Assembly (NCBI GenBank): GCA_040757115.1
Contig: JBFLYA010000113.1
Span: 1-12,679 of the forward strand
Source of the DNA: a bacterium
GTDB lineage: Bacteria; UBA9089; CG2-30-40-21; SBAY01
Direction: 5' to 3'
DNA: 12,679 nt
This document shows, piece after piece, positions 7,161 to 10,051 of this stretch (positions within the stretch are counted from its first letter, which is position 1; each line of letters opens with the position of its first letter). The notes under the pieces were generated by a model. It saw nothing but the letters and a program-made list of their open reading frames with translations, was not told where the DNA came from and did not search any database. The position numbers and the translations under genes are program-made.

Positions 7161-8093
7161 TTAGCTACTATCTGCTGTTTCTTTTAGAAACTCGCTTACC
7201 CTTCCAAATTCTGCTAAGGTTAATGTTTCTCCTCTCCTTTTGCTATCAATCCCTAATTCAGCCAGGGCTTTGGCTAATTTATCCTTACTCATACCAATAT
7301 CTGAAATGGCATTAATTAGCATTTTTCTTCTCTTTGAAAAGGCGGCTCTAACTACTTTAAAGAAAAATTGCTCATCCTTTACTGATATTGATGGTCTGTC
7401 TAAGATATTTAACCTTAAGACAACTGAATCTACCTGTGGCTGAGGGTAAAAACATTGCCTGCTTACCTCACATATTCGTTCTACATAACAATGATATTGC
7501 ACCAGAACAGATAAGGCACCGTAGATTTTTGTCCCTGGTTTAGCCAGGATTCTATCCCCAACCTCTTTCTGCACCATTAAAATTAATGTTGAGAAGTTCT
7601 CTTTTGCCTCAAGGAGATGTCCAATCACAGGCGTTACAATATAATAAGGCAAATTGGCTACTACCTTTATCTTCTTTTCTGCTGAAAATCGGGGCTCGGG
7701 ACTCGGGACTCGGGACTCGGGAGGAGTCTGTCTTTTGTCCTCTGTCCTCTGTCTTTGGTCTTCTCTATCTAACACTTCAGACAAATTTACCTTTAAAATA
7801 TCCTCCTTTATTACCAAAACATTTGTATATCCCGCTAATTCTTGATTGAGAATATTTATCAACACCGGGGCAATTTCAACCGCAATAACCTTTGAGACTA
7901 ACGGGACTAATTGACTGGTTAAAATACCAATTCCGGCGCCAATCTCTAAGACGGTATCCTCTTTCGATAATTGCGCCGCTGAAATTATTTGCTTAAGTAT
8001 CCCTTCGTTCACAAGGAAGTGTTGTCCTAATTTTTTTTGGGGTCTGATATTGTTTTGTAATAGTATTTTCTTCGTATCATCAAGTAAAGACAT
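7161..8093 (-). CDS. rsmA: 16S rRNA dimethyladenosine transferase RsmA/KsgA with an in-frame repeat insert
   Basis: RsmA dimethylates two adjacent adenines in the 3'-terminal helix of 16S rRNA (A1518/A1519 in E. coli) during small-subunit assembly. Seen: RPQKKLGQHFL (18-27), SAM motif VLEIGAGIG (48-56), acidic EIAP after strand 2, catalytic NLPYY (147-151), and the C-terminal FSKRRKML signature. The ATG at 8093 gives 310 residues; a TTG at 8129 would add 12 residues but overlaps the upstream gene, and the protein start MSLLDDTKK fits the family better. Residues 109-139 (DNA 7677-7769), between the DILKVNL strand and KVVANLPYY, are an Arg/Pro/Glu-rich stretch absent from normal RsmA. Removing it leaves 279 residues, near the 273 of E. 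coli KsgA. The gene is 19 bases after Uma2 copy B in an operon with pdxA. Confidence 0.93.
   Translation of the reverse strand: MSLLDDTKKILLQNNIRPQKKLGQHFLVNEGILKQIISAAQLSKEDTVLEIGAGIGILTSQLVPLVSKVIAVEIAPVLINILNQELAGYTNVLVIKEDILKVNLSEVLDREDQRQRTEDKRQTPPESRVPSPEPRFSAEKKIKVVANLPYYIVTPVIGHLLEAKENFSTLILMVQKEVGDRILAKPGTKIYGALSVLVQYHCYVERICEVSRQCFYPQPQVDSVVLRLNILDRPSISVKDEQFFFKVVRAAFSKRRKMLINAISDIGMSKDKLAKALAELGIDSKRRGETLTLAEFGRVSEFLKETADSS
7691..7768. repeat. Composite heptanucleotide repeat inside rsmA
   Basis: Two adjoining 7-bp tandems. CTCGGGA is present four times (7695-7722), preceded by GGGG. After a short junction, six degenerate units of TCTGTCY type follow (7727, 7734, 7741, 7748, 7755, 7762). 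The coding strand of rsmA reads through them without a stop, giving a motif rich in QR, TE and PSPEPR. The same two tandems in the same order, with the shared junction AGTCTGTC, occur in pdxA at 9528-9619. Confidence 0.92.
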
Positions 8094-8112
8094 TATTTGC
8101 ACCAATACATCG

Positions 8113-8673
8113 TTAAAATACTTCACCAACTTTAAAATGAAAATCCTCTAATAGGACTGAAGAAAGAGTATCTTCGGACTTAAAGATACCATAAGTTTTA
8201 TATCTTCCTTCTTCTAAGGTCAAAACCTCTATCTCTTTTCTATTTGCGTCAACTAACCAGTATTCTTTGACACCACATCTTTCATAAAGCCTTTTTTTCG
8301 TAATTCTGTCCCTCTGGGCAGAGTTTGGCGAGATAATCTCTATCAGTAAATCCGGTGAACCTTGTATATTATCTTTTGTAATGATATTGAAATTTTCTTT
8401 TAAGACAAAGATAATATCTGGTTGAACAACATCTTCGTTACTTAAAACAACATCACAAGGGGCATCAAATACCTCTCCTAACCCTGATTTTTCTAATACT
8501 TGCATAATTTTAAATTCCATTCTTTTTGAGATTCGTTGATGCCATACATTTGGTGCTGGTGCCATAAAGAATTCACCTCCAATCAATTCATACCGATTGT
8601 CAGAGTCTATATCCCAGGTAAGATAATCTTCGTAGGTAAATTTTTCTTGTTTTGGCATAGTTGCTGTAGTCAT
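8113..8673 (-). CDS. Uma2-family putative restriction endonuclease (copy B)
   Basis: The 186-residue Uma2 (DUF820) product has a PD-(D/E)XK fold. Family landmarks: FTYEDYLTWD, IGGEFFMAPAP with E34, WHQRISK, APCDVVLSNEDVVQPD with D86, LLIEIISPNS with E112, and KKRLYERCGVKEYWLVDA. It is clearly paralogous to copy A (many identical blocks, roughly half of positions by eye) but differs throughout, so the duplication is not recent. Its ATG at 8673 overlaps the pdxA stop as ATGA, and its ribosome binding site (AAAGGAGG) lies in the last codons of pdxA, so translation should be coupled. It sits between two housekeeping genes, pdxA and rsmA, and has no evident link to either pathway. Function is unknown beyond the predicted nuclease fold. 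Confidence 0.86.
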   Translation of the reverse strand: MTTATMPKQEKFTYEDYLTWDIDSDNRYELIGGEFFMAPAPNVWHQRISKRMEFKIMQVLEKSGLGEVFDAPCDVVLSNEDVVQPDIIFVLKENFNIITKDNIQGSPDLLIEIISPNSAQRDRITKKRLYERCGVKEYWLVDANRKEIEVLTLEEGRYKTYGIFKSEDTLSSVLLEDFHFKVGEVF

Positions 8674-9755
8674 TGCTTTCCTCCTTTTATCTTTGCCATT
8701 TTTGCCGCCAATTTAATTGCCTCTAATATACTTGTTGGATTGGCTATATTTTTCCCGGCAATATCAAATGCAGTGCCGTGGTCAGGTGAGGTCCGAATTA
8801 TAGGCAAACCAATCGTTACATTTACGGCATCATCAAAGGCTAATAATTTTAAAGGAATAAGTCCCTGGTCGTGATACATTGCGATGACGACATCAAATTC
8901 ACCTTTGACGGCACGATAAAAAACAGTATCTGGCGGATAGGGTCCTCTGGCGTTAATCCCTTTGCGTTGAGCGACCTCAATCGCCGGGATAATCTCTTTT
9001 TCCTCCTCTTTGCCAAATAACCCTCCTTCGCTGGCGTGTGGATTTAATCCAGCTACGGCAATTCCTGGCTTTTTTAGTCCAAAATAATCCTTAAATGCAG
9101 ATTGAGTTAATTTAATCGTGGTCAAAACCTTTTTCCTTGAAAGTTGCCGGATTGCCTTGTATAAAGGGATATGAATACTTACCAGAACAACCTTCAAAGA
9201 ATGACTTACAAACATCATCGCATATTGGCGTCTATGGGTTAAGTCCGCCAAAAAATCTGTATGTCCGGCGAAATGAAATTCTGCTTTCTTCATTGCCTCT
9301 TTATTTATCGGTGCGGTTGTAATCGCCTGAATTTCATTATCCAGAGCTAGATTAACTGCTTTTTTTATGAATTCTATAGCCGCCTTACCAGTTGTTCTGC
9401 TTATCTTCCCAATCTCTAATTCATCTAATTTAATATTATCTAAATCAAGACAATCAATCGTTCCAAACTGAAATTTAGCCTCTGATACATCTTGAATAGA
9501 ATTAATCTTTAATCTGTCCTCAAAATTGGGGCTCGGGGCTCGGGGCTCGGGACTCGAAACTCGGGGTTCGGGAAAAGTCTGTCCTCTATTCTCTATCCTC
9601 TGTCTTCTGATTTCTGCTAACAATACCTTCGCATCACCAATCACTATTGGGCAACATTCCTCATAAATAGAAGGCATATTTAATGCCTTAATAATTACTT
9701 CAGGTCCAATTCCTGCGGCATCACCCATCGTGATACCAATAATCGGTTTTCCCAT
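8670..9755 (-). CDS. pdxA: 4-hydroxythreonine-4-phosphate dehydrogenase PdxA with an in-frame repeat insert
   Basis: PdxA oxidises 4-phosphohydroxy-L-threonine with NAD(P); the product decarboxylates to 3-amino-1-hydroxyacetone phosphate for pyridoxal phosphate synthesis by the DXP-dependent route. Seen: GITMGDAAGIGPEV (7-20), TAPINKEAM (147-155), metal ligand His in AGHTDFLA (H165), GLNPHASEGGLFG, MYHDQGLIPLK, and the C-terminal RTSPDHGTAFDIAG signature. The ATG at 9755 follows AGGTAGG-type purines. The product has 361 residues; residues 49-81 (DNA 9513-9611), between DAKVLLAE and LKINSI, are a repeat-derived Arg/Pro/Glu-rich insert. Without it the length is 328, against 329 in E. coli PdxA. 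It heads a tight pdxA-Uma2-rsmA operon. No convincing promoter was found in the palindrome upstream. Proteins of the PdxA2 subfamily have other substrates, so substrate assignment is by family. Confidence 0.93.
   Translation of the reverse strand: MGKPIIGITMGDAAGIGPEVIIKALNMPSIYEECCPIVIGDAKVLLAEIRRQRIENRGQTFPEPRVSSPEPRAPSPNFEDRLKINSIQDVSEAKFQFGTIDCLDLDNIKLDELEIGKISRTTGKAAIEFIKKAVNLALDNEIQAITTAPINKEAMKKAEFHFAGHTDFLADLTHRRQYAMMFVSHSLKVVLVSIHIPLYKAIRQLSRKKVLTTIKLTQSAFKDYFGLKKPGIAVAGLNPHASEGGLFGKEEEKEIIPAIEVAQRKGINARGPYPPDTVFYRAVKGEFDVVIAMYHDQGLIPLKLLAFDDAVNVTIGLPIIRTSPDHGTAFDIAGKNIANPTSILEAIKLAAKMAKIKGGKQ
9528..9619. repeat. Composite heptanucleotide repeat inside pdxA
   Basis: Six 7-bp units of CTCGGGR type with drift start at 9532, 9539, 9546, 9553, 9560 and 9567. 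Six units of TCTGTCC/TCTATCC type then start at 9578, 9585, 9592, 9599, 9606 and 9613. The two blocks join through AAAGTCTGTC, matching the junction in rsmA. The coding strand has no stop in the used frame. The last TCT-type units fade into normal pdxA sequence, so the right boundary is approximate. Confidence 0.9.
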
Positions 9756-9772
9756 ATCACCTACCTATTGTA

Positions 9773-10051
9773 AGGTAATCGGTAATATAGCAGTTATTAG
9801 TCAAAATTTTACTCAGAGTGGATAAGTAAAAAATCCCAAATCCCAAGCACCAAATCTCAAATAAGCACCAAATTCCACATACCAAAAAGCGAATTAGAGA
9901 TTAGTGAATTAGAGATTAGATTTTACTAATTCGCTAATTCGCTTAATTCACTAATTCACTAAATGGAATTTGGAATTTGTGATTTGGAATTTCAGAACCC
10001 TATTTATGTCAAATTTCGATTAATAAGTGCTATAATGGTCACCGATTACCT
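9773..10051. mobile_element. 279-bp nested imperfect palindrome with terminal inverted repeats (MITE-like)
   Basis: This element fills most of the 308-base gap between pdxA and the GGDEF gene. The outer ends are inverted: AGGTAATCGGT at 9773 and ACCGATTACCT ending at 10051, followed inward on both sides by TATAGCANTTATTA-like and CAAAATTT/CGAAATTT sequences. Next inward are AAATCCCAAATCCC/CACCAAAT units (9831-9880), facing TTGGAATTTGTGATTTGG (9961-9993). The core arms are GAATTAGAGATTAGT units (9889-9919) and CTAATTCGCTAATTCG units (9926-9960) around a loop of about 6 bases. No coding frame and no clear target duplication are seen. A transcript would form one long hairpin. Whether it is mobile, or a structural or termination element, cannot be settled here. 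Confidence 0.7.

Follow-up and report, generated by a model that had tools for sequence, protein, structure and literature searches.

Repeat arrays within pdxA and rsmA/ksgA

The window (the whole stretch of DNA analysed, 12,679 nucleotides, from the genome designated G000) contains pdxA and rsmA/ksgA, 1.8 kb apart on the minus strand, and each open reading frame holds two arrays of tandem 7-bp units. The features are as follows.

7161–8129, minus strand: rsmA/ksgA, the second host gene (open reading frame; Pfam RrnaAD, E = 3.9e-62)
7676–7688, minus strand: edge of the ksgA array, ATTTTCAGCAGAA, which is near the intergenic edge ATTTTCAGGAGAA
7689–7722, minus strand: CCGAGTC-type array in ksgA (TRF)
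7729–7764, minus strand: AGAGGAC-type array in ksgA (TRF, 7727–7764)
8670–9755, minus strand: pdxA, which carries the insert (open reading frame of 361 aa; Pfam PF04166, E = 1e-110)
9518–9527, minus strand: edge of the pdxA array, coding strand AATTTTGAGG (GATTTTGAAG in the congeneric genome G005)
9528–9572, minus strand: CCGAGTC-type heptamer array in pdxA (TRF); peptide PEPRVSSPEPRAPSP
9573–9583, minus strand: junction of the two pdxA arrays, which contains AGTCTGTC on the plus strand and overlaps the start of the AGAGGAC array
9578–9608, minus strand: AGAGGAC-type heptamer array in pdxA (TRF, 9578–9601, and sequence); peptide RRQRIENRGQ

The two pdxA arrays found by TRF (9528–9572 and 9578–9601) are adjacent and both have period 7. 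The coding strand across the insert reads ...AGAAGACAGAGGATAGAGAATAGAGGACAGACTTTTCCCGAACCCCGAGTTTCGAGTCCCGAGCCCCGAGCCCCGAGCCCCAATTTTGAGGACAGA..., and the order in the coding direction is the AGAGGAC-type array, a short junction and the CCGAGTC-type array ending in AATTTTGAG. The template strand is the G-rich strand of the CCGAGTC array. PdxA outside of residues 46–80 aligns with solved PdxA structures, and residues 46–80 replace 9 native residues of 4jqp, the best solved PdxA homologue. An earlier note on this DNA gave a length of 328 for the protein minus its insert; the arithmetic is correct (361 − 33 = 328), but relative to 4jqp the net excess is only about 26 aa. In KsgA, about 23 residues (125–147) have no counterpart. 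Both insert sites are places of protein length variation across the phylum. The same note proposed that pdxA and rsmA carry one array pair in equal order and with the same junction, and here TRF and the sequence agree: the junction 8-mer AGTCTGTC (plus strand) is identical in the two genes.

An intergenic segment upstream of pdxA, positions 9831–9992 of the window, displays four heptamer-like arrays that form two nested inverted pairs, AAATCCC.../GGAATTT... around GAATTAGAGATTAG.../CTAATTCGCTAATTC..., and a long hairpin is possible.

Both inserts are found at identical sites in G005, an independent congeneric genome. The CCGAGTC array of pdxA is longer there by 42 bp (6 heptamers, 14 aa) and the ksgA insert by 99 bp, with a quite different junction. 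Between the two genomes dN/dS is 0.11 for pdxA outside the insert, which is purifying selection, and 0.26 for ksgA; thus both genes are in working order with the inserts in place. The presence of both inserts in G005 and the purifying selection on pdxA make an assembly artefact unlikely, and as judged from the sequence comparison the inserts are real and old. Orthologous arrays of the two genomes are mostly shared and the remainder are complex replacements; the comparison of G000 with G005 yielded no array-free orthologue bounded by clean target-site duplications. The Uma2-like gene situated between pdxA and ksgA is present in three tandem copies in G005 (L160, 1240–2960) and in one copy in the window (8113–8673).

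Reading frames of the arrays

As 7 = 1 mod 3, a heptamer array runs through all three reading frames. Six-frame translation shows that the three forward frames of both blocks give rotated (G)QRTEDR and PSPE(S/P)R cycles, since the arrays are 7-periodic and every forward frame yields the rotated peptide. In the ksgA block none of the six frames contains a stop. In the pdxA block stops are present in frames +1 and +2 only, at array positions that carry point changes, and the frame used is free of stops. The frame shared by the two genes had been taken as evidence for a dispersing element, but this argument fails because any stop-free heptamer array presents one 7-residue cycle in every frame. 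What can be read from the peptide common to PdxA and KsgA is a unit with no stop codon and a fitting total length, and nothing about a shared frame.

Period-7 arrays in the genome

A search of G000 for GACTCGGx3 with up to 3 mismatches gave 269 overlapping matches, compared with 9 for the reversed control. With the pdxA block as DNA query 48 matches were found, and the AGAGGAC unit gave 43 overlapping matches at up to 2 mismatches. The hundreds of overlapping GACTCGG matches and the 48 pdxA-block matches bear out the proposal of the earlier note that the peptides are of DNA-repeat origin and that the repeat is dispersed.

A census of tandem arrays covered about 0.46 Mb of G000 from the ends of the larger contigs, chosen regardless of repeats, and in addition stretches around matches. 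In the 460 kb of contig ends there are 61 arrays of period 7, while periods 5, 6, 8, 9 and 10 are represented by 0, 3, 14, 16 and 5 arrays, respectively. A mononucleotide shuffle produced no arrays at periods 6–8, and the period-7 excess is not due to chance. The excess is also found in G005 and in G006 and G007, which are related genomes that differ from G000 by a genus. The 61 sampled arrays fall into 32 unit classes; about a quarter are inside long open reading frames and about three quarters outside.

Contig C77 of G000 carries a 1330 aa open frame with 19 period-7 arrays (L163, 12754–16743), in which AATTACC and GACTCGG units alternate with roughly regular spacing.

Array edges

The CCGAGTC arrays share a common edge, CGATTTT(C/G)AG, on intergenic as well as genic copies. 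It is seen in ksgA and at two HdrA-type sites and, slightly changed, in pdxA. More generally the edge CTGAAAAT / ATTTTSAG adjoins both genic and intergenic arrays, and the edge at positions 9518–9527 in pdxA is of the ATTTTSAG type that borders many other CCGAGTC arrays. For this edge, TGAAAA is present in 57 of 420 array flanks in G000, where 3.4 are expected, and it accompanies 10 unit classes. Many intergenic arrays adjoin a TGAAAAT-bounded module whose slot holds differing arrays (GACTCGG, AGTAGAA and AGCGAAT types); the pdxA and ksgA blocks have no inverted ends. Shared edges and the TGAAAA excess together suggest that arrays have been copied along with their edges and not grown locally.

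Intergenic modules bounded by ATTTTCA and TGAAAAT, which enclose a hairpin such as CCCACTCCCTGTGGG, adjoin heptamer arrays at several places in G000 (L169, 7100–7700; L061; L064; others).

Arrays within open reading frames

Arrays were assigned as genic by open reading frames and not by a trained gene caller. Hosts with Pfam support are PilM/PilN, PilB (T2SSE), PilC (T2SSF), QueC, CarB (carbamoyl-phosphate synthase large chain), TrpE, HdrA-type flavoproteins and TMEM260-like O-mannosyltransferases. Three HdrA-type genes of G000 have GACTCGG arrays directly ahead of VM(I/V)QCVGSRE.

Different units are found at one protein site in different genomes. The PdxA site is occupied by a perfect (AGAATTC)5 in G007 and by (CAGGTGY)4 in G006. 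Each of these units is dispersed in its own genome: arrays of AGAATTC give 22 matches in G007 and 0 in G000, those of CAGGTGT 25 in G006, 28 in G007 and 0 in G000, and GACTCGG arrays give 0 matches in G006 and G007. These differences at the PdxA site, between genomes that are a genus apart, may represent replacement of one array by another or independent insertions. A TMEM260-like site between ...LLIFI(L/I)LKW and YLYLF shows four units at one place: AATCGGT and AAAACTC in two G000 genes, AAAATCC in G006 and, by DNA alignment, an AACGCTC-type array in G005. In G006 the insert in ksgA at this site is the palindromic sequence CAGGTTTACAACCTGGTA in an 18-bp direct duplication (L131) and not a heptamer array, and thus the ksgA site is less clear than the pdxA site.

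Among genic arrays, 86 of 92 have a stop-free coding strand, compared with 56% for a random heptamer at 37% GC; the other six show a coding-strand stop in the consensus unit, and some genic calls are therefore misassigned. When an array is open on both strands, 31 of 34 gene-by-unit cases (p = 8e-7) use the strand whose peptide is the more hydrophilic, or 13 of 16 when counted by unit class (p = 0.02). Length also appears constrained. All seven non-zero genic length differences between G000 and G005 are multiples of 3, as opposed to 6 of 14 intergenic ones; some of these comparisons are paralogue pairs. The view that genic copies survive in a frame free of stops is thus borne out but incomplete, because orientation (hydrophilicity) and 3n length are filtered as well. 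In genes with GGGACTC arrays the sense strand is the C-rich strand, and G-quadruplex-prone runs are thus kept from the mRNA.

Comparison with known repeat systems

The arrays resemble the STRRs of filamentous cyanobacteria, in which several families of 7-bp units are dispersed per genome and intergenic pairs form hairpins (PMC2670836). As in STRRs, the 7-bp tandem unit is in excess over other periods, several unit families are present at many unlinked loci in one genome, and the arrays are mainly intergenic (about three quarters of the 61 sampled), the pdxA and ksgA copies being the exception. Unlike STRRs, the arrays are here in frame in many conserved genes, genus-own units occupy one protein site, and the host is not known to be cyanobacterial.

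The G3N4 heptamers are 89–93% intergenic in Xanthomonas and 68% in Nostoc, with few genic copies described (Rehm 2015, PMC4692102). They share with the present arrays a 7-nt unit, dispersal and variable copy number, but here non-G units are numerous and the same protein sites are used repeatedly. The template strand of the pdxA and ksgA arrays carries at least four G3 tracts spaced by 4 nt, as in G4 heptamers of the GGGNATC type, a likeness of primary sequence, and the unit is GGGACTC / GGGGCTC in place of the GGGNATC and GGGGA(C/T)T of Rehm 2015. A scan of genome contigs with the GACTCGG 21-mer shows the GGGACTC unit also in Xanthomonadales, Microbulbifer, Geobacter and Planctomycetota; at least 120 genome stretches from these and other groups carry the exact GACTCGGx3 array (L192–L311). 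The AAATCG edge of G000 is found in 0 of 144 GACTCGG arrays among the matches listed from other phyla, and the sequences lend no support to a common origin with those arrays.

The TAACTGA repeats of marine Beggiatoaceae have stops in one orientation and read through in the other (PMC4679880). They are likewise dispersed heptamer arrays; however there is a single unit, found mostly upstream of start codons, and no copies in the cores of conserved proteins are described. A further parallel is the Rickettsia palindromic elements (RPE), by which peptides of repeat origin are inserted in frame into numerous unrelated genes of metabolism (PMC10969869), and in-frame insertion into unrelated conserved genes is seen here also. 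But RPE are palindromes of about 150 bp, fixed in sequence and used in a single frame, whereas the present elements are direct tandem 7-mers of variable length, frame-neutral and with no inverted ends.

Origin of the pdxA insert

The pdxA insert is probably a pair of STRR-like dispersed heptanucleotide arrays situated in a tolerant site of PdxA and filtered by selection on the protein. Period-7 arrays of many unit sequences are scattered through the genomes of this family, and the recurrence of one unit at unrelated loci, often with an equal edge, points to the copying of arrays to new sites and not to the origin of each from local sequence. Copy number changes, presumably by slipped-strand replication that lengthens and shortens the arrays, and template switching or a MITE-like carrier may seed new sites. 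A stop-free unit reads through every frame (7 = 1 mod 3). Genic arrays show 3n differences between genomes and the hydrophilic orientation, so that selection on the protein decides which of them persist, and one protein site holds different units in different genomes. The peptide itself is perhaps tolerated and not useful.

It is unlikely that pdxA and rsmA received both arrays through transposition of one defined, mobile composite element that resembles a MITE or an RPE. The two genes do agree in order, orientation and junction, two further genic copies of the pair are found on contig C30, the ATTTTSAG edge is common, and in pdxA the CCGAGTC block lies between near-identical GGACAGACT / GGACAGATT. 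However the joined AGAGGAC–CCGAGTC pair accounts for only 4 of the 62 CCGAGTC arrays examined in G000, all of them genic, and the other 58 have no partner array; thus the pair is not the unit of movement. In addition the junctions differ in the G005 ksgA and in both C30 copies, the pair lacks terminal inverted repeats, and the direct repeats that flank the CCGAGTC block are AGAGGAC units themselves. The single composite element of the earlier note is not supported, in view of the solitary arrays and the G005 ksgA junction.

Growth of each array in place by slippage, starting with a heptamer present there by chance and with no transfer from site to site, is quite improbable. A preference for 7-nt units is known in long simple sequence repeats; among long repeat units, period 7 is given as the most frequent in many bacteria, and a polymerase footprint has been suggested as the cause (Mrazek 2007, cited in PMC4679880). 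The array copy number also differs between species. But the same small set of units is met again at unrelated places, with common edges, and local growth does not produce this. Very unlikely is a reading in which the arrays are functional and kept for DNA or RNA structure, as a G-quadruplex (GGGACTC being G3N4) or a regulatory element. The G3N4 heptamers of Xanthomonas and Nostoc form G4 in vitro (PMC4692102), and the C-rich sense strand of the array-bearing genes is what would be expected if G4 in mRNA were avoided; however the units here are mostly A/T-rich and incapable of G4, a relative has the non-G4 unit AGAATTC at the PdxA site, and the hydropathy rule for the peptides holds for non-G units too. 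Gene conversion between pdxA and rsmA alone, which their 1.8 kb distance might favour, or an assembly artefact is exceedingly improbable and was rejected: the genome search shows more than two copies, with hundreds of matches elsewhere, two more genes on C30 have the pair, and both inserts are present in G005.

A broader reading can be put forward only tentatively and is rather doubtful: arrays of 7-bp units would be actively copied to new sites, protein genes included, the set of units would be particular to each genus and would shift with time, and conserved enzymes would repeatedly gain and exchange low-complexity inserts at the same surface sites. We found no description of the recurrent use of one protein site by different heptamers in the open-access literature, a scope outside of which most subscription journals lie.

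The arrays provide a simple rule for the entry of non-triplet repeats into proteins, in that a stop-free 7-bp unit is frame-neutral and only total length and peptide character are selected. Sites that carry different units in related genomes can serve as natural replicates for testing where proteins tolerate inserts. The same origin explains such segments as PSPESRV, NPKSEIR or GQRTEDR, which gene callers and structure predictors will meet in housekeeping proteins of uncultured bacteria.

The window displays a further heptapeptide repeat, KKTDEQL, in a 253 aa open reading frame (1416–2177), where it is encoded by seven 21-bp repeats that are 95% alike (1919–2065).
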